From positions 1 through 64,000 of the forward strand of contig CAKASQ030000069.1 in assembly GCA_916988195.3 (NCBI GenBank): a stretch of 64,000 bases of DNA, in the 5' to 3' direction. Made by a program: the position numbers and the translations under genes. The DNA is from Oscillospiraceae bacterium. GTDB lineage: Bacteria > Bacillota > Clostridia > Oscillospirales > Oscillospiraceae. Shown one piece after another: positions 4,056-62,619 of the stretch (its first letter is position 1; every line of letters starts with the position of its first letter). The notes beneath the pieces were generated by a model. That model made no database searches and had not been told where the DNA came from. It was given only the letters and a program-made list of their open reading frames with translations.

Positions 4056-5210
4056 ATGGCAAAGAAACGGGCAAACGGCGAGGGCAATATCCGCAAGCGA
4101 AAAGACGGGCGCTGGGAAGGACGGTACACTGCTGGGTACGACGAGAAAACCGGCAAACGAATCACCAAGAGTGTCCTCGGCAAAACGCAGGCAGAGGTAA
4201 AAGAAAAGCTGGCGAAAGCAGTCGCGGAAGCGGAAAGCGTCGATGTACGGAGAGCAGACGAGTACACGCTCGGCACATGGCTGCAAACGTGGTATGAACT
4301 CTACGCAAAACCACACCTGCGATTCTCAACTGCCGAGTATTACCGGCGTGGAATCGAGTTACACATTGTCCCGCGCATCGGGGATATTCCGCTGAAAAAG
4401 CTGACTGGGCGCGATCTGCAATGGCTCTACAAAGACCTGCAAGAACACGGACGGCTCCGCGAAGCGCAGAAGGGCAAGCAGCCGGGGCTGAGTGATTCCA
4501 CGATCCGCGGCATCCACACGATGCTGCACAACGCGCTCGACCGGGCAGTCAAGGAACGCCTGATTGTGCGCAATCCAGCGGATGACTGCATTCCGCCCAA
4601 AATCCCGAAGTACGAAATGAGGATCCTGCTGCCGGAACAAATCAAGTCCTACCTGACCGCTGCTGACCAGCGCGGCGTCCTGCCGATGTTCTATCTGGAA
4701 CTCATCAGCGGACTACGCAAAGGCGAGCTGGTAGCGCTCCAATGGTCAGACTTGGACATCGAAAACAAGACGATTTCCGTCAGCAAGCAGGCGGGACGCA
4801 ACAGCGCAGGCGAACCCGACATCACTCGTCCGAAAACAGAAAACTCCATCCGCAAAATATCGATTCCGCAGGATGCCGTCGATCTGCTAATCGCGGAGCA
4901 TCAGAAGCACCCGAGCAACCCGTGGATGTTCCCATCACCTAAAACGGGCGAGATGTACCACCCGGACTCGGTGGTCAACATCCACAAGAAGATCCTAAAG
5001 GATGCAGGGCTGGAACACCTGAGATTTCATGACTTGCGACACACATTCGCGACCTTGGCGCTCCAAAATGGCGTGGACGTAAAGACAGTATCCAGTATGC
5101 TTGGCCATTTCGACGCAGGCTTCACGCTCCGCACCTACACCCACGTCACGCGGCAGATGCAGGAAAGTGCAGCCGAAAAGATGGGTAATTTCATGGCACA
5201 GGTCATGTAA
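4056..5210 (+). CDS. Tyrosine recombinase/integrase
   Basis: The 384-aa protein starts at the ATG that follows GAAGGAGG. Residues 1-60 look like the AP2-like arm-binding domain of ICE and phage integrases (GEGNIRKRKDGRWEGRYTAG), residues of about 70-170 like the SAM-like core-binding domain, and the rest like the catalytic domain. The catalytic set is visible: Arg221 (SGLRKGEL), His325-Asp-Leu-Arg328-His (HDLRHTFAT), His351 (MLGHFD) and Tyr361 (TYTHV). Length and motifs indicate an intact enzyme. A strong terminator and a 23-bp repeat follow directly. Whether it serves the large element to the right or a smaller 5-kb cassette is unclear. Confidence 0.9.
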   Translation: MAKKRANGEGNIRKRKDGRWEGRYTAGYDEKTGKRITKSVLGKTQAEVKEKLAKAVAEAESVDVRRADEYTLGTWLQTWYELYAKPHLRFSTAEYYRRGIELHIVPRIGDIPLKKLTGRDLQWLYKDLQEHGRLREAQKGKQPGLSDSTIRGIHTMLHNALDRAVKERLIVRNPADDCIPPKIPKYEMRILLPEQIKSYLTAADQRGVLPMFYLELISGLRKGELVALQWSDLDIENKTISVSKQAGRNSAGEPDITRPKTENSIRKISIPQDAVDLLIAEHQKHPSNPWMFPSPKTGEMYHPDSVVNIHKKILKDAGLEHLRFHDLRHTFATLALQNGVDVKTVSSMLGHFDAGFTLRTYTHVTRQMQESAAEKMGNFMAQVM

Positions 5211-5296: not shown

Positions 5297-5427
5297 AGCC
5301 GGATTTCACAGGTTTTCACGAAGTGCGTTCCCCAAAATGGTATATACATTTATAGGAAAAATTCTGCTGGGTTGATGCCTGAAAAACACCACTTTTCTAC
5401 AAAATCAGAAATCCGAAAATAGTTGCA

Positions 5428-5462
5428 AAAACGCCTGATATTCAGAGAATATCAGGCGTTTT
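5428..5462. terminator. Bidirectional terminator at tRNA-Tyr 3' end
   Basis: A 16-bp perfect stem (AAAACGCCTGATATTC with its complement) closes a 3-nt loop and has A/T runs on both sides. It touches the CCA end of the minus-strand tRNA-Tyr gene and would end that transcript. Confidence 0.8.
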
Positions 5463-5546
5463 GGTGGGGGAAGGTGGATTCGAACCACCGAAGTCACTGA
5501 CAACAGATTTACAGTCTGCCCCCTTTGGCCACTCGGGAATTCCCCC
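5462..5546 (-). tRNA. tRNA-Tyr (anticodon GUA)
   Basis: The 85-nt minus-strand sequence has a 7-bp acceptor stem (GGGGGAA/TTCCCCC), an encoded CCA end, the anticodon context CTGTAAATC with GTA, a long class II variable arm and the T-loop GGTTCGAATCC. All features fit bacterial tRNA-Tyr. Confidence 0.95.
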
Positions 5547-5575
5547 ATATTCAGTTTGCTGCGCTGCGGAAAGAT

Positions 5576-5651
5576 TGGAGCTGGTAGACGGACTCGAACC
5601 CCCGACCTGCTGATTACAAATCAGCTGCTCTACCAACTGAGCTATACCAGC
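5576..5651 (-). tRNA. tRNA-Thr (anticodon UGU)
   Basis: The 76-nt minus-strand sequence has the acceptor pair GCTGGTA/TACCAGC, a D-arm AGCTCAGTTGGTAGAGC, the anticodon loop TTTGTAA with TGT, the T-loop GGTTCGAGTCC and an encoded CCA. It lies 29 bp upstream of tRNA-Tyr on the same strand and is probably cotranscribed with it. Confidence 0.95.
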
Positions 5652-5746
5652 AACTCAAACAGCAAGACTGATTATAATGGGTAAAGCTCAAAATGTCAAG
5701 CATTTTTTCGTTTTTTCGAAAAAAATTTTTAAACTGCGCCAACCGT

Positions 5747-54261: not shown

Positions 54262-54375
54262 AAGGAGCTTTTGTCTATTTGCTGTGCTGATTCTGGTACT
54301 GTTGGCGGCCACTGGCGCAGCAGTTTTCCGCATTTACCCCAAGCAAAGGAGGCGAACAATATGGGCAAAATTTTA
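54262..54375 (+). pseudogene. C-terminal remnant of a membrane protein (CD1107-like)
   Basis: A frame bounded by a TAA upstream encodes a helix (AVLILVLLAATGAAVF) followed by a basic end (RIYPKQRRR), the usual tail of CD1107-like mobile-element membrane proteins. It runs into the start of the next gene. No upstream part is present, so it looks like a decayed 3' end. Confidence 0.35.
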
Positions 54376-54783
54376 ATATTATCCGTCACTGACCACGAAG
54401 AACATATACTCAATAAAATTATGGAAACTATCGCAAACGAGCCGGAGCTTAACCATATTGCGCCTCCTCTCCCTTGCAACATTCTTTCTTTTACAAATCT
54501 GGAAATCCGGCTGAAGGAGCAGACAGTGTCCTGCAGCGGTCAACTTGTTACTCTGACTCACCATGAGTTTGCTGTCCTTACATATCTGGCTCGTCATCCT
54601 GGCTGGGTATTCTCAGCCAGCCAGATTTATGAGGCCGTATGGGATAGAGACGGTGAACGCTGCGGCACTGCCGTTGCCAGTATCATCAGTCAGATCCGGC
54701 GCAAGTTGACGCCGGATACACCAAAGGGTGGCTATATTCGCACTGTACTGGGCAGTGGATATAAATTTGAATCCGTGATATAG
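54361..54783 (+). CDS. Orphan OmpR-type winged-helix protein (copy 1)
   Basis: The ATG follows AAAGGAGGCG. The 140-aa product has a short N-terminal part (KILILSVTDHEEHILNKIME) in place of a receiver domain and a Trans_reg_C winged helix (about 45-140; LTHHEFAVLTYLARHPGWVF, GTAVASIISQIRRKL, GYIRTVLGSGYKF). No phospho-acceptor domain is present. It is nearly identical over most of its length to the gene at 57803, and a third copy lies at 62185. Target unknown. Confidence 0.75.
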   Translation: MGKILILSVTDHEEHILNKIMETIANEPELNHIAPPLPCNILSFTNLEIRLKEQTVSCSGQLVTLTHHEFAVLTYLARHPGWVFSASQIYEAVWDRDGERCGTAVASIISQIRRKLTPDTPKGGYIRTVLGSGYKFESVI

Positions 54784-54925: not shown

Positions 54926-55279
54926 TTACAGTTTTGAACCACAAGGCGGTGTAATATCCAATCCTTCAAGAAAGTGTATTCCCCAGTTACACATAGAATC
55001 TAATACCGGAATGATACTTTTTCCAAAAGCGGTAAGAGAATACAAAGTTTTAGGTGGTTTTTCTGGAATTACTTCTCTGTGAATCATGCCGCATTCTTCC
55101 AAATCGCGAAGTTGTTGTGAAAGCATTTTAGGGGTGGCTTTTGGAATTAAGCGTTGTAATTCCATGTAGTGCAAAGGTTTTTCTATCAAATGCCAAAGAA
55201 TGAGCGGTTTATATTTTCCTCCGATTAGAAAAAGTGTGGCTTCCACTGGACAACTAAATTGATCTTTTTGATAATTCAT
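54926..55279 (-). CDS. HxlR-family transcriptional regulator
   Basis: The start ATG at 55279 follows AAAAGGAG. The 117-aa protein shows the HxlR winged helix (CPVEATLFLIGGKYKPLILWHL, LQRLIPKATPKMLSQQLRDLE, EVIPEKPPKTLYSLT). Cys10 stands at the place of the redox-active Cys of YodB/HypR-type regulators. It is divergent from a nitroreductase gene, a classical pair in which the regulator represses the enzyme until electrophiles react with the Cys. Confidence 0.85.
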   Translation of the reverse strand: MNYQKDQFSCPVEATLFLIGGKYKPLILWHLIEKPLHYMELQRLIPKATPKMLSQQLRDLEECGMIHREVIPEKPPKTLYSLTAFGKSIIPVLDSMCNWGIHFLEGLDITPPCGSKL

Positions 55280-55428
55280 TTTTATGAATTCACTCCTTTT
55301 TGGGTACTTTCTTTGAGGGAAGTATCTACCTGAAAAGTGCAATCTTGTTATTCTGCTGCACCATGTTAAAATTAGTACGACGATTGAACATGTCAATTAA
55401 ATTATACAACACCAAGAAAGGATTGACC

Positions 55429-55950
55429 ATGATGAATTTTATTGAGATTGCAAAAAAACGGTATTCTGTACGCAATTACAGCAGCAAAAAGGTGGAAAAA
55501 GAGAAGCTTGATAAAATTTTGCAGGCTGCTCATGTTGCACCAACAGCAGCAAACTTACAGCCGGTTCACTTAATTGCAGTAGAAAGCAAAGAGGGACTGG
55601 AAAAAATCAGCAAAGGGGCAAATATTTATAATGCTCCTCTTGCAATTATTGTATGCGCAGATCATAACAAAGCATGGGTTCGCCCATTTGACCAAAAGCA
55701 AACCGGAGACATTGACGCAGCTATCCTAACAGACCATATGATGTTGGAGGCAACAGAATTAGGTTTAGGTACCGTATGGGTATGTTACTTTCAGCCTGAT
55801 GTTATCCGAAAAGAATTTGATTTGCCCGATAATTTAGAGCCAATCAATATTTTAGTAATCGGTTATGGAAATGAAGAAGCTGCAGATACAGAAAGACATG
55901 ACCATCTGAGGATTCCACTCACCGACTTAGTTTCGTATGAAAAACTGTAA
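55429..55950 (+). CDS. FMN-dependent nitroreductase-family oxidoreductase
   Basis: The start ATG at 55429 follows AAAGGA. The 173-aa protein has the NfsB/FrhA-like pattern: KRYSVRNYSSKKV near the N-terminus (FMN phosphate binding), HVAPTAANLQPVHL, and TELGLGTVWVCYFQPD. The family binds FMN and reduces nitro compounds or quinones with NAD(P)H. The next genes import riboflavin and make FMN, its cofactor. Confidence 0.85.
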   Translation: MMNFIEIAKKRYSVRNYSSKKVEKEKLDKILQAAHVAPTAANLQPVHLIAVESKEGLEKISKGANIYNAPLAIIVCADHNKAWVRPFDQKQTGDIDAAILTDHMMLEATELGLGTVWVCYFQPDVIRKEFDLPDNLEPINILVIGYGNEEAADTERHDHLRIPLTDLVSYEKL

Positions 55951-55998
55951 CTGAGTATAAGATGATTTCCGAAATGCTTCCGAACTTTCTTCAACTCA

Positions 55999-56027
55999 TT
56001 GCTTCCAAAAGTGGTTGATGTTATAAT
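55999..56027 (+). promoter_or_regulatory. Promoter of the riboflavin unit
   Basis: TTGCTT (55999-56004) and TATAAT (56022-56027) are 17 bp apart. The FMN riboswitch starts about 25 bp downstream. Confidence 0.7.
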
Positions 56028-56161: not shown

Positions 56162-56221
56162 TGGTTAGATTTCCGCAGATTTTGAGAGGCTTACTTTCTT
56201 TTCTGTGGCCTAATTATAATG

Positions 56222-56262
56222 TTAACACCTGAAAGACCTTTTCTTTTGGGTGTTAATTTTTT
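56222..56262 (+). terminator. Riboswitch expression-platform terminator
   Basis: An 8-bp stem (TTAACACC/GGTGTTAA) with a 19-nt loop is followed by TTTTTT. It lies between the aptamer and the ribosome binding site of RibU (GGAGG), as expected for transcriptional control. Confidence 0.8.
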
Positions 56263-56281
56263 GTCACGGAGGAAAGCAATT

Positions 56282-56926
56282 ATGAACAGTAAAACAAAAA
56301 GAATCACCGCTATTGGGATGCTATGTGCAATCACTTATGTCACCATGGTTGTTGGCAGGATTCCGATTATTCTATTCTTAAAGTATGACCCATCAGATGT
56401 TATTGTAACTTTAGGCGGCTTTATTTGGGGACCGATGACTTCCTGTATCGTATCTGTCATTGTGGCAACCCTTGAAATGATTACAGTAAGCGATACCGGA
56501 ATATTAGGTTGTATCATGAATATCGTACAAACACTATCTTTTGCGTGTACGGCGTCTATCATTTACAAAAAAAAGCACACTCTATCTGGTGCACTGATTG
56601 GTCTGGCATCGGGGTGGCTAATAACGGTTATTGTTATGCTGCTGTGGAACTATTTGGTAACACCACTTTATATGGGGTATCCAAGAGAAGCGGTTGTGGA
56701 ATTGTTACTCCCTGCCTTTCTTCCATTTAACTTGTTGAAAGGCGGGTTAAATGCATCCATTACCTTTTTATTGTATAAGCCCATAGTTACCGCTTTAAGA
56801 AAAAGTGGATATATTTCTACTTTGGAAAAAGACACAAGGCAGCAACATACCGGTCTGCTTATACTGGCAAATTTCATCATTGTGACTTGTGTTTTGATCA
56901 TCCTTTCAATGAATGGGATTATATGA
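56282..56926 (+). CDS. ribU: RibU-like riboflavin ECF transporter S component
   Basis: The ATG at 56282 follows CGGAGG. The 214-aa protein has about six helices and the S-component outline (AIGMLCAITYVTMVVGRIPII; KYDPSDVIVTLGGFIWGP, where PSD/L motifs of RibU lie). The FMN riboswitch upstream supports riboflavin as substrate. It needs an ECF energising module from elsewhere in the genome. Confidence 0.85.
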   Translation: MNSKTKRITAIGMLCAITYVTMVVGRIPIILFLKYDPSDVIVTLGGFIWGPMTSCIVSVIVATLEMITVSDTGILGCIMNIVQTLSFACTASIIYKKKHTLSGALIGLASGWLITVIVMLLWNYLVTPLYMGYPREAVVELLLPAFLPFNLLKGGLNASITFLLYKPIVTALRKSGYISTLEKDTRQQHTGLLILANFIIVTCVLIILSMNGII

Positions 56927-57627
56927 GGATCGAAATGAAAGAAAATACGAATGCGCCTATTTACACACTAACAGGAATCGTTATACACGGCCGAGGTATT
57001 GGAAAGCATGTGGGGACACCTACCGCAAACATGGAAATAGCAAAAAATACATTTTTGCCAAAGACAGGGGTATATGTGGCAGATATTCTTTTAAGTGACA
57101 ACAGATATTATGGTGTTACTCATATTGGGGCACGCCCCACACTTGATAATGATGATTCTGTTTCAATCGAAACACATATTTTTGATTTTGATAGGGACAT
57201 ATACGGGAGTACGATAACTGTCAACCTATATAAGAAATTGAGAGAAGTTAGAAAATTTAACGAATTATCATTGCTGCTTGCACAAATTGCAAACGACCGG
57301 ACAATGGCACTAAAATTTTGGGGATTGAAGCAAGCAAGTCACACCTTACACATTGATGTTAACCGGCATTGTGTAATATTAGAACAGAAGGAAGTTTATT
57401 TATCAACAAACGAATTTGAAGTTCTTTATCTGCTACAACAGTCTCCTCAAACCACATTCACAAAAGAGCAGATTTATGAAAAGATTTGGCATGAGCCTAC
57501 AAATAACCATTTGCACGCAGTAGAAAATACAATTTTCCAAATACGCAAAAGGCTAAAACCATATTGCAAGGGGCACGAGTATATAAAAACTGTAATTGGC
57601 TACGGTTATAAGTTTAATTCTGGGTAA
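56923..57627 (+). CDS. Riboflavin kinase fused to an OmpR-type winged helix
   Basis: The ATG at 56923 overlaps the RibU stop; ATG at 56935, after GAGG, is the other option. Numbered from 56923, residues 12-127 are a bacterial flavokinase domain: GIGKHVGTPTAN (PTAN at 33-36), YGVTHIGARPT (63-73), the general-base Glu83 in SIETHIFDFD and the LREVRKF segment. The FAD synthetase domain of bifunctional RibF is absent. Residues 142-234 are a Trans_reg_C winged helix (LSTNEFEVLYLLQQSPQ, FQIRKRLKPY, YIKTVIGYGYKF). It should make FMN and bind DNA. The pairing recalls archaeal RbkR and Bacillus RibR, but domain types differ. Confidence 0.85.
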   Translation: MRIEMKENTNAPIYTLTGIVIHGRGIGKHVGTPTANMEIAKNTFLPKTGVYVADILLSDNRYYGVTHIGARPTLDNDDSVSIETHIFDFDRDIYGSTITVNLYKKLREVRKFNELSLLLAQIANDRTMALKFWGLKQASHTLHIDVNRHCVILEQKEVYLSTNEFEVLYLLQQSPQTTFTKEQIYEKIWHEPTNNHLHAVENTIFQIRKRLKPYCKGHEYIKTVIGYGYKFNSG

Positions 57628-57802: not shown

Positions 57803-58228
57803 ATGGGCAAATTTTTAATATTATCCGTTGCAGACCACGAAGAACATATACTCAATAAAATTATAGAAGCTATTGCAAACGAACCAGAGCTTGACCATAT
57901 TGCTCTCCCACCCTCTAACGCCAGCCTCTCCTTTCCAGACCTTGAAATTCGGCTAAAGGAGCAAACTGTATCCTGCAACGGTCAACTTGTTACTTTGACT
58001 CACCATGAGTTTGCTGTCCTCGCTTATCTGGCTCGTCATCCTGGCTGGGTATTTTCTGCCAGCCAGATTTATGAGGCTGTGTGGAATGTGGACGGTGAGC
58101 ACTGCGGAACTGCCGTTGCCAGCGTCATCAGTCAGATACGACGCAAGTTGACGCCGAATATGCCCAAGGGTGGCTATATCCGGACTGTACTGGGCAGCGG
58201 ATATAAATTTAACAGTTCTCCCTTTTAA
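57803..58228 (+). CDS. Orphan OmpR-type winged-helix protein (copy 2)
   Basis: The ATG at 57803 has AAAGGATG upstream. The 141-aa product is a near-copy of the 54361 product (same KFLILSVADHEEHILNKI start, LTHHEFAVLAYLARHPGWVF and GGYIRTVLGSGYKF). It has no receiver domain. The two copies bracket the flavin module. A bidirectional terminator follows. Confidence 0.75.
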   Translation: MGKFLILSVADHEEHILNKIIEAIANEPELDHIALPPSNASLSFPDLEIRLKEQTVSCNGQLVTLTHHEFAVLAYLARHPGWVFSASQIYEAVWNVDGEHCGTAVASVISQIRRKLTPNMPKGGYIRTVLGSGYKFNSSPF

Positions 58229-62184: not shown

Positions 62185-62619
62185 CTATTCTGCCATACCC
62201 TGCGGAACTTCAAATTTGTATCCGCTCCCCAAAACAGTACGGATATAACCCGCTTTCGGCATATCCGGAGTCAGTTTTCTGCGGATCTGACCAATGACGC
62301 TGGCAACGGCTGTTCCGCAGTTTTCACCATCCTCACCCCACACTTCTTCATAGATCTGCCCGGCAGAAAATACCCAGGATGGGTGGTTTGCCAAGTATAC
62401 CAATGTCGCAAATTCCCGATGGGTCATAGAAATCAACTCGCCGTTTCGGTGTACAGTTCTCTCCTTCAGGCGAAGCTCCAATCCCGGAAAAACAAGAGTA
62501 TTACAAGGGTGAGATGACACAATATGGTCAAATCCCGGCTCGGCTGCAATAATCTCCATAATTCTGCTAAGTATATATTCTTCATGGTCTGTTACCGACA
62601 ATACAAAGATTTTTCCCAT
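62185..62619 (-). CDS. Orphan OmpR-type winged-helix protein (copy 3)
   Basis: The 144-aa product (KIFVLSVTDHEEYILSRIME start; MTHREFATLVYLANHPSWVF; GYIRTVLGSGYKFE end) is a more distant paralogue of those at 54361 and 57803. It has no receiver domain. It lies beside a DUF6440-like gene and an FtsX permease on the same strand, which suggests it regulates them. Confidence 0.75.
   Translation of the reverse strand: MGKIFVLSVTDHEEYILSRIMEIIAAEPGFDHIVSSHPCNTLVFPGLELRLKERTVHRNGELISMTHREFATLVYLANHPSWVFSAGQIYEEVWGEDGENCGTAVASVIGQIRRKLTPDMPKAGYIRTVLGSGYKFEVPQGMAE

Follow-up and report, generated by a model that had tools for sequence, protein, structure and literature searches.

We found that the 64,000-nucleotide window (the whole stretch of DNA that was analysed) carries an operon in which a riboflavin kinase (RFK) domain and an OmpR/PhoB-type winged helix (wHTH) are joined in one protein, directly behind a putative riboflavin transporter gene and an FMN riboswitch, and downstream of a tandem direct repeat that we predict to be the operator of that protein. 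We consider it likely that this is a self-contained, partly mobile riboflavin-scavenging operon, and that its kinase is bifunctional and doubles as the operon's own transcription factor.

The fusion gene occupies positions 56923-57627 of the forward strand and encodes 234 residues in a single frame with no internal stops, as judged from the list of open reading frames, Pfam and alignment to relatives. Residues 14-131 (56962-57315) form the riboflavin kinase domain, which includes T34, N36 and E83 (Pfam Flavokinase, E = 2.9e-37), and residues 156-231 (57388-57615) form the winged helix with the recognition-helix stretch LHAVENTIFQIRKRLKP (Pfam Trans_reg_C, PF00486, E = 3.6e-17, 62.6 bits against a cut-off of 26.2). 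These matches bear out the original prediction, made from the letters of the sequence, that a flavokinase and a Trans_reg_C domain share one frame. It had also held that the FAD synthetase half is missing, and this is correct: neither Pfam nor the RibF models detected an FMN adenylyltransferase half, and the RibF models matched in the RFK part alone, with scores far under their cut-offs. No receiver domain was matched in the protein, whose N-terminus is the RFK domain. An AlphaFold model of moderate confidence (mean pLDDT 72, pTM 0.56) displays the RFK barrel and the winged helix with no defined interface between them, and the linker that joins them, about 20 residues long, is poorly conserved across the fusions. 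When this model was searched with Foldseek, the best matches were RFK modules, followed by OmpR-family effector domains with much weaker scores.

A frameshift or assembly error splitting the protein into two genes, one of the dangers foreseen with the original prediction, is ruled out: the frame is continuous in L009, L010, L011, L012, L089, L124 (genome G707), L127 (G338), L128 (G069) and L191 (G1157). The other danger, that related genomes would have no such fusion, has not materialized either, since at least five diverged lineages carry an intact fusion, at 91% to 29% identity and always directly after ribU. We therefore rejected an artefact as the origin of the fusion. A scan of GTDB genome contigs recovered near-copies at 88-91% identity (L009-L012) and one copy at 73% (L013), and a further copy (L089) lies on a Subdoligranulum record classed as a plasmid. 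Three diverged fusions, those of G338 (40%), G069 (29-31%) and G707, came from family- and order-wide searches, and that of G1157 emerged when G707's family was searched. A model of the protein's tail separated the fusions, at E values of 1e-47 or lower, from the next matches, ordinary winged helices that began at 1e-25. The architecture is rare. In the window's family 4 of 400 genomes have it, the window included, and in G707's family 2 of 188; a sample of 391 genomes from across the class contained no fusion besides that of the window itself. Neither three viral-contig scans nor a phage collection contained a full-length fusion, and we rejected a phage origin on these grounds. Only one copy is frameshifted, that of L013 (4453-5704): the frameshift falls in the wHTH, and the 5' part of ribU, the riboswitch and the operator are gone, so that by its sequence L013 is a decaying copy.

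The window copy has the kinase motifs P33-T34-A35-N36, G69-A-R-P-T73 and E83, and alignment to the C. ammoniagenes enzyme CaFADS (motifs 207-PTxN-210 and 254-GxxPT) places T34, N36 and E83 at its T208, N210 and E268, in agreement with the earlier claim that PTAN, GARPT and Glu83 are all present. CaFADS variants with Ala or Asp at these positions failed to make FMN, apart from traces with E268D (PMC2573891). The three residues are invariant in 26 of 26 RibF rows and are present in the window's group, G707 and G1157; from the full catalytic set we infer that the window copy has kinase activity. Two lineages depart from this pattern. T34A and N36G are shared by G338 and G069; G069 has E83D in addition, the GxRPT segment is missing in G338, and the proteins of both are predicted to be kinase-inactive. 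Of the elements that shape the flavin pocket, both retain the GVY segment, F112 and the R107/D125 pair (residue 125 is G in L010, the single exception). In G338 (L127) the wHTH is 53-57% identical to that of most other lineages, as against 29-36% for the RFK domain. Because the catalytic residues were lost while the pocket frame and the wHTH persist, we suggest that the RFK part of these two proteins serves as a flavin sensor. Each of the two lineages is represented by one genome, and searches of their genera found no further members.

We lean slightly towards a broader reading of this series, in which the fusions constitute an RFK-based bacterial family of flavin-sensing transcription factors. 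An active kinase-regulator, as in the window, G707 and G1157, would have become a dedicated flavin sensor in G338 and G069 through loss of its catalytic residues, and one operon would be under two independent flavin controls, the protein at initiation and the riboswitch at termination. G338 and G069, with their degraded catalytic residues, would then provide a natural enzyme-to-sensor series that is directly testable.

For the window operon we propose that RibU would bring riboflavin in and that the RFK domain would phosphorylate it to FMN, trapping the vitamin. The fused wHTH, most likely as a dimer, would bind TTCCGAA-N4-TTCCGAA near -60 of its own promoter, and flavin occupancy of the RFK site would modulate DNA binding or activation, so that two flavin controls would act in series, RFK-wHTH on initiation and the FMN riboswitch on termination. 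It is plausible that flavin occupancy of the RFK domain alters regulation of the operon; we infer the identity of the ligand, the sign of regulation, DNA binding and the control of that binding by flavin. The original prediction had already proposed a DNA-binding switch of this kind. Its fusion, its riboswitch context and its idea of a flavin-linked switch are all supported, and the DNA-binding side has gained a predicted operator. Sensing of riboflavin, FMN or ATP by the kinase site is presumed as before, with indirect support from the relatives in which catalytic residues were lost and the flavin-pocket frame and the wHTH were kept.

A more economical version would make the protein a constitutive autoregulator, the wHTH binding the operator and the RFK domain being merely an enzyme whose ligand state has no effect on DNA binding. 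The operator, described below, is well supported, and we saw no sign of coupling between the domains in the poorly conserved linker or in the model without an interface. However, an enzyme-only role leaves unexplained why G338 and G069 keep the flavin-pocket frame together with the wHTH after catalytic loss, and the fusion has been kept across five lineages. We regard this version as unlikely.

The first gene of the operon (56282-56926, forward strand) encodes an ECF transporter S component (Pfam ECF_trnsprt, E = 4.8e-19), and its product has counterparts of 44-73% identity in three other lineages. We assign it as RibU on the basis of the riboswitch and of resemblance, no RibU-specific model having matched. 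Its stop codon overlaps the start of the fusion in the sequence ATGA (56923-56926), and this overlap suggests translational coupling of the two genes. Upstream lies an FMN riboswitch aptamer (RF00050, 56049-56164, forward strand) that scored 113.4 bits against a gathering score of 66.2. It is followed on the same strand by a strong hairpin called as an intrinsic terminator (56221-56262; z = -6.2 for 56200-56274), and because of this hairpin the expression platform looks like one of FMN-dependent termination. The aptamer score and the ATGA overlap confirm the earlier placement of the fusion directly behind ribU under an FMN riboswitch. The promoter (55999-56027, forward strand) was recognized by eye as a -35 element TTGCTT (55999-56004), a 17-nt spacer and a -10 element TATAAT (56022-56027), and the same geometry is found in G707, G338 and G1157. 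Its -35 element agrees with the consensus at 3 of 6 positions, and the automatic scan, which calls at least 4 of 6, therefore omits the window promoter.

Tandem 11-bp direct repeats are the usual sites of OmpR/PhoB-family proteins. Such a repeat, TTCCGAA-N4-TTCCGAA, lies upstream of the promoter at 55967-55984 of the forward strand (half-sites 55967-55973 and 55978-55984), and we predict from its conservation across lineages that it is the operator. The repeat is exact in the window's group, G707 and G338, and has two mismatches in G1157. In all four, 14 nt separate the second half-site from the -35 element and the promoter spacer is 17 nt; the DNA around repeat and promoter has diverged among these lineages and the geometry of the repeat is constant, although, because the promoter regions share ancestry, the lineages are not fully independent witnesses to conservation of the repeat. 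The -35 hexamers behind the repeat are TTG-type in the window's group, G707 and G338. Among 200 loci the exact repeat was found at fusion operons alone, and the whole genomes G000, G336, G338 and G707 contain it once each, every time before the fusion operon. When 150-bp stretches of the window were taken at random, only about 1.75% contained any exact 7-mer repeated at an 11-bp period, and the same 7-mer would hardly recur at the same place by chance. G069, the fifth lineage, differs in both elements: its 11-bp repeat is CTCCGTTTTT/CTCCGGTTTT and lies one base away from where the others have theirs, and its recognition helix reads HQVENVVSQLRKKF as opposed to HAVENT[IV]FQIR in the other four lineages.

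From these data we think it probable that the fused wHTH binds the TTCCGAA repeat and regulates its own operon. A repeat centred near -60 and a weak -35 element would suit an activator, and for this reason we favour activation over repression, by a modest measure. With one mismatch allowed, matches to the repeat in the whole genomes G000, G336, G338 and G707 were few and close in number to those of a reversed-pattern control, and we do not claim a regulon beyond the protein's own operon. Nor did we find 11-bp repeats of this kind ahead of the small winged-helix genes discussed below, or such a repeat near the stand-alone wHTH of L192, whose helix is nearly the same as that of the fusions.

Some other regulator, such as a response regulator of the host, might instead occupy the repeat, with the fused wHTH binding elsewhere; 11-bp direct repeats are general to the OmpR family, and every host has many response regulators of the same fold. 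This is quite improbable, however, given that in different hosts the exact repeat has a single copy per genome, located at this operon, that it travels with the operon, and that it is altered in the one lineage with a changed recognition helix, G069.

Autoregulation of transcription by the fused wHTH also has to be set against the idea of a protein that acts mainly on RNA, as RibR does, and tunes the FMN riboswitch rather than the promoter. The flavokinase RibR is a precedent (PMC7693651), and the fusion lies directly downstream of an FMN riboswitch; but its C-terminal domain is a canonical DNA-binding wHTH, and what is conserved in cis is a DNA repeat that precedes the promoter, lies outside the transcribed region and is kept in a lineage where no riboswitch was detected. 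We consider an RNA-acting role very improbable. Four of the five lineages have the riboswitch ahead of ribU; the exception is G1157, where none was detected at the ribU-fusion operon (L191/L193). The repeat and the promoter are both kept there, and in that lineage control by the protein may stand alone.

A tree built from RFK domains has a branch that sets the fusions apart from the RibF rows; its support, 94/59, is not strong, and the topology is consistent with the fusion having arisen once. In a tree of winged helices, those of the fusions group with small receiver-less proteins of mobile elements and not with most response regulators (96/92); the orphan wHTH of L192 falls among the fusion group in this tree, whose alignment is short. 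Close copies of the fusion differ by 11 amino-acid and 32 silent variants in the wHTH and by 32 and 47 in the RFK domain (p = 0.12). The dN/dS of the wHTH is low, and by these counts it appears to be constrained no less than the RFK domain. We rejected a stronger constraint on the wHTH, since only the pair of the window and L010 was significant (p = 0.003) and the pooled tests gave p = 0.12 to 0.18. We give next to no credence to the wHTH being a mere vestige, left by the accidental joining of a winged-helix gene from a mobile element, such that only the kinase matters: its grouping in the tree and the two genes of that kind flanking the operon would agree with this, but the low dN/dS with constraint no weaker than on the RFK domain, its retention where the RFK domain has eroded (L127) and the matching repeat at fixed geometry all argue against it.

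BirA and NadR are enzymes of cofactor metabolism with a DNA-binding domain that controls genes of their own pathway, and the fusion as we propose it would likewise be enzyme and regulator of the same pathway. They differ from it in their enzymes and folds, in having an N-terminal HTH and in having no riboswitch on the same transcript. The fusion shares with RibF a homologous RFK domain and the same catalytic residues, but has a DNA-binding domain in place of the adenylyltransferase. Like OmpR/PhoB response regulators it has a Trans_reg_C wHTH and, as predicted operator, a tandem 11-bp direct repeat; unlike them it has an RFK domain where the receiver would be, and its wHTH groups with receiver-less proteins. 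Archaeal RbkR (Rodionova et al., 2017), as described in PMC8305020, is both a gene regulator and a riboflavin enzyme and combines an HTH with a CTP-dependent riboflavin kinase, so that kinase and DNA-binding domain are in one chain as in the fusion. The HTH of RbkR is N-terminal and its kinase (MJ0056-type) belongs to another family, whereas the fusion has a bacterial ATP-type kinase (PF01687), a C-terminal OmpR-type wHTH, a RibU operon with a riboswitch and relatives that look kinase-dead. The fusion is thus not an RbkR, as kinase family, domain order and HTH type all differ; MJ0056 was a weak fold match to the fusion in Foldseek (TM 0.24). The B. subtilis flavokinase RibR is reported to interfere with FMN riboswitches (PMC7693651), and it resembles the fusion as a monofunctional bacterial-type flavokinase with a regulatory role tied to such riboswitches. 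The target of RibR is riboswitch RNA and its gene belongs to a sulfur operon, whereas the fusion has a DNA-binding wHTH, a predicted promoter operator and a ribU operon; the distinction between the second domains follows the description of RibR. In the searchable literature (open-licence papers) we found no bacterial flavokinase with an OmpR-type domain. If our reading is true, the fusion would stand beside RbkR and BirA as their bacterial counterpart, a cofactor enzyme that also acts as transcription factor for its own uptake operon and adds this control to that of an FMN riboswitch.

The limits of the conserved unit show that the predicted operator moves with the genes. Homology to the window is confined to 55963-57644 in L009, 55966-57627 in L011 and 55966-57619 in L012, so in these copies the moved unit begins at the repeat and ends at or near the stop codon of the fusion. 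Relaxase genes lie near the L009 and L012 copies and an integrase gene near the L124 copy. The uptake unit is carried in part on mobile elements and moves between gut Clostridia together with its predicted operator. The original prediction had also pointed to a nearby nitroreductase. This gene (55432-55950, forward strand) does adjoin the operon in the window, L010 and L089, and only there; like the HxlR-type regulator gene beside it (54926-55396, reverse strand), identified by Pfam as well, it lies outside the conserved unit, being missing from the block common to L009, L011, L012, L124, L127 and L128. The pair belongs to a larger block common to L010 and L089 only, and with the neighbourhood unconserved we rejected a functional tie to it.

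The host of the window has no lumazine synthase, an enzyme present in 14 of 14 control genomes, and its genome is 98% complete; the host therefore cannot make riboflavin by the usual route and depends on uptake. It has its own RibF (G000:C31) and, on the same contig as the window, a second FMN riboswitch (G000:C69:116506-116617, L198) before what appears to be its own ribU, with no TTCCGAA operator. Given these, the window operon is an additional uptake unit, with a kinase that is not essential to the host. Riboflavin auxotrophy is predicted for about half of Lachnospiraceae (PMC12934955), and, together with the absence of lumazine synthase from the host, this gives the operon a bearing on competition for vitamin B2 in the gut.

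Some neighbouring and related genes deserve mention in their own right. Two small receiver-less winged-helix proteins, identified by Pfam and the wHTH tree, flank the operon outside the unit: one, of a mobile element, at 57803-58228 and a second at 54361-54783, both on the forward strand. Others are encoded at 62209-62481 of the window (reverse strand), at 1492-1824 of L159 (reverse strand) and at 5343-5654 (reverse strand) and 5905-6249 of L192. The cargo beside these genes includes ABC permeases, a MATE-like transporter (L192) and, by eye, a gene resembling those for tetracycline ribosomal protection (L159), and such receiver-less winged-helix proteins of mobile elements may form a cargo-linked family of regulators. 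Downstream of the window, L194 (G000:C69:64001-84000) contains a run of FtsX/MacB-type ABC permease genes. Finally, L125 of G420 encodes at 4066-4467 a stand-alone riboflavin kinase of 133 residues with neither adenylyltransferase nor wHTH, which adjoins a gene that by eye resembles one for asparaginyl-tRNA synthetase.
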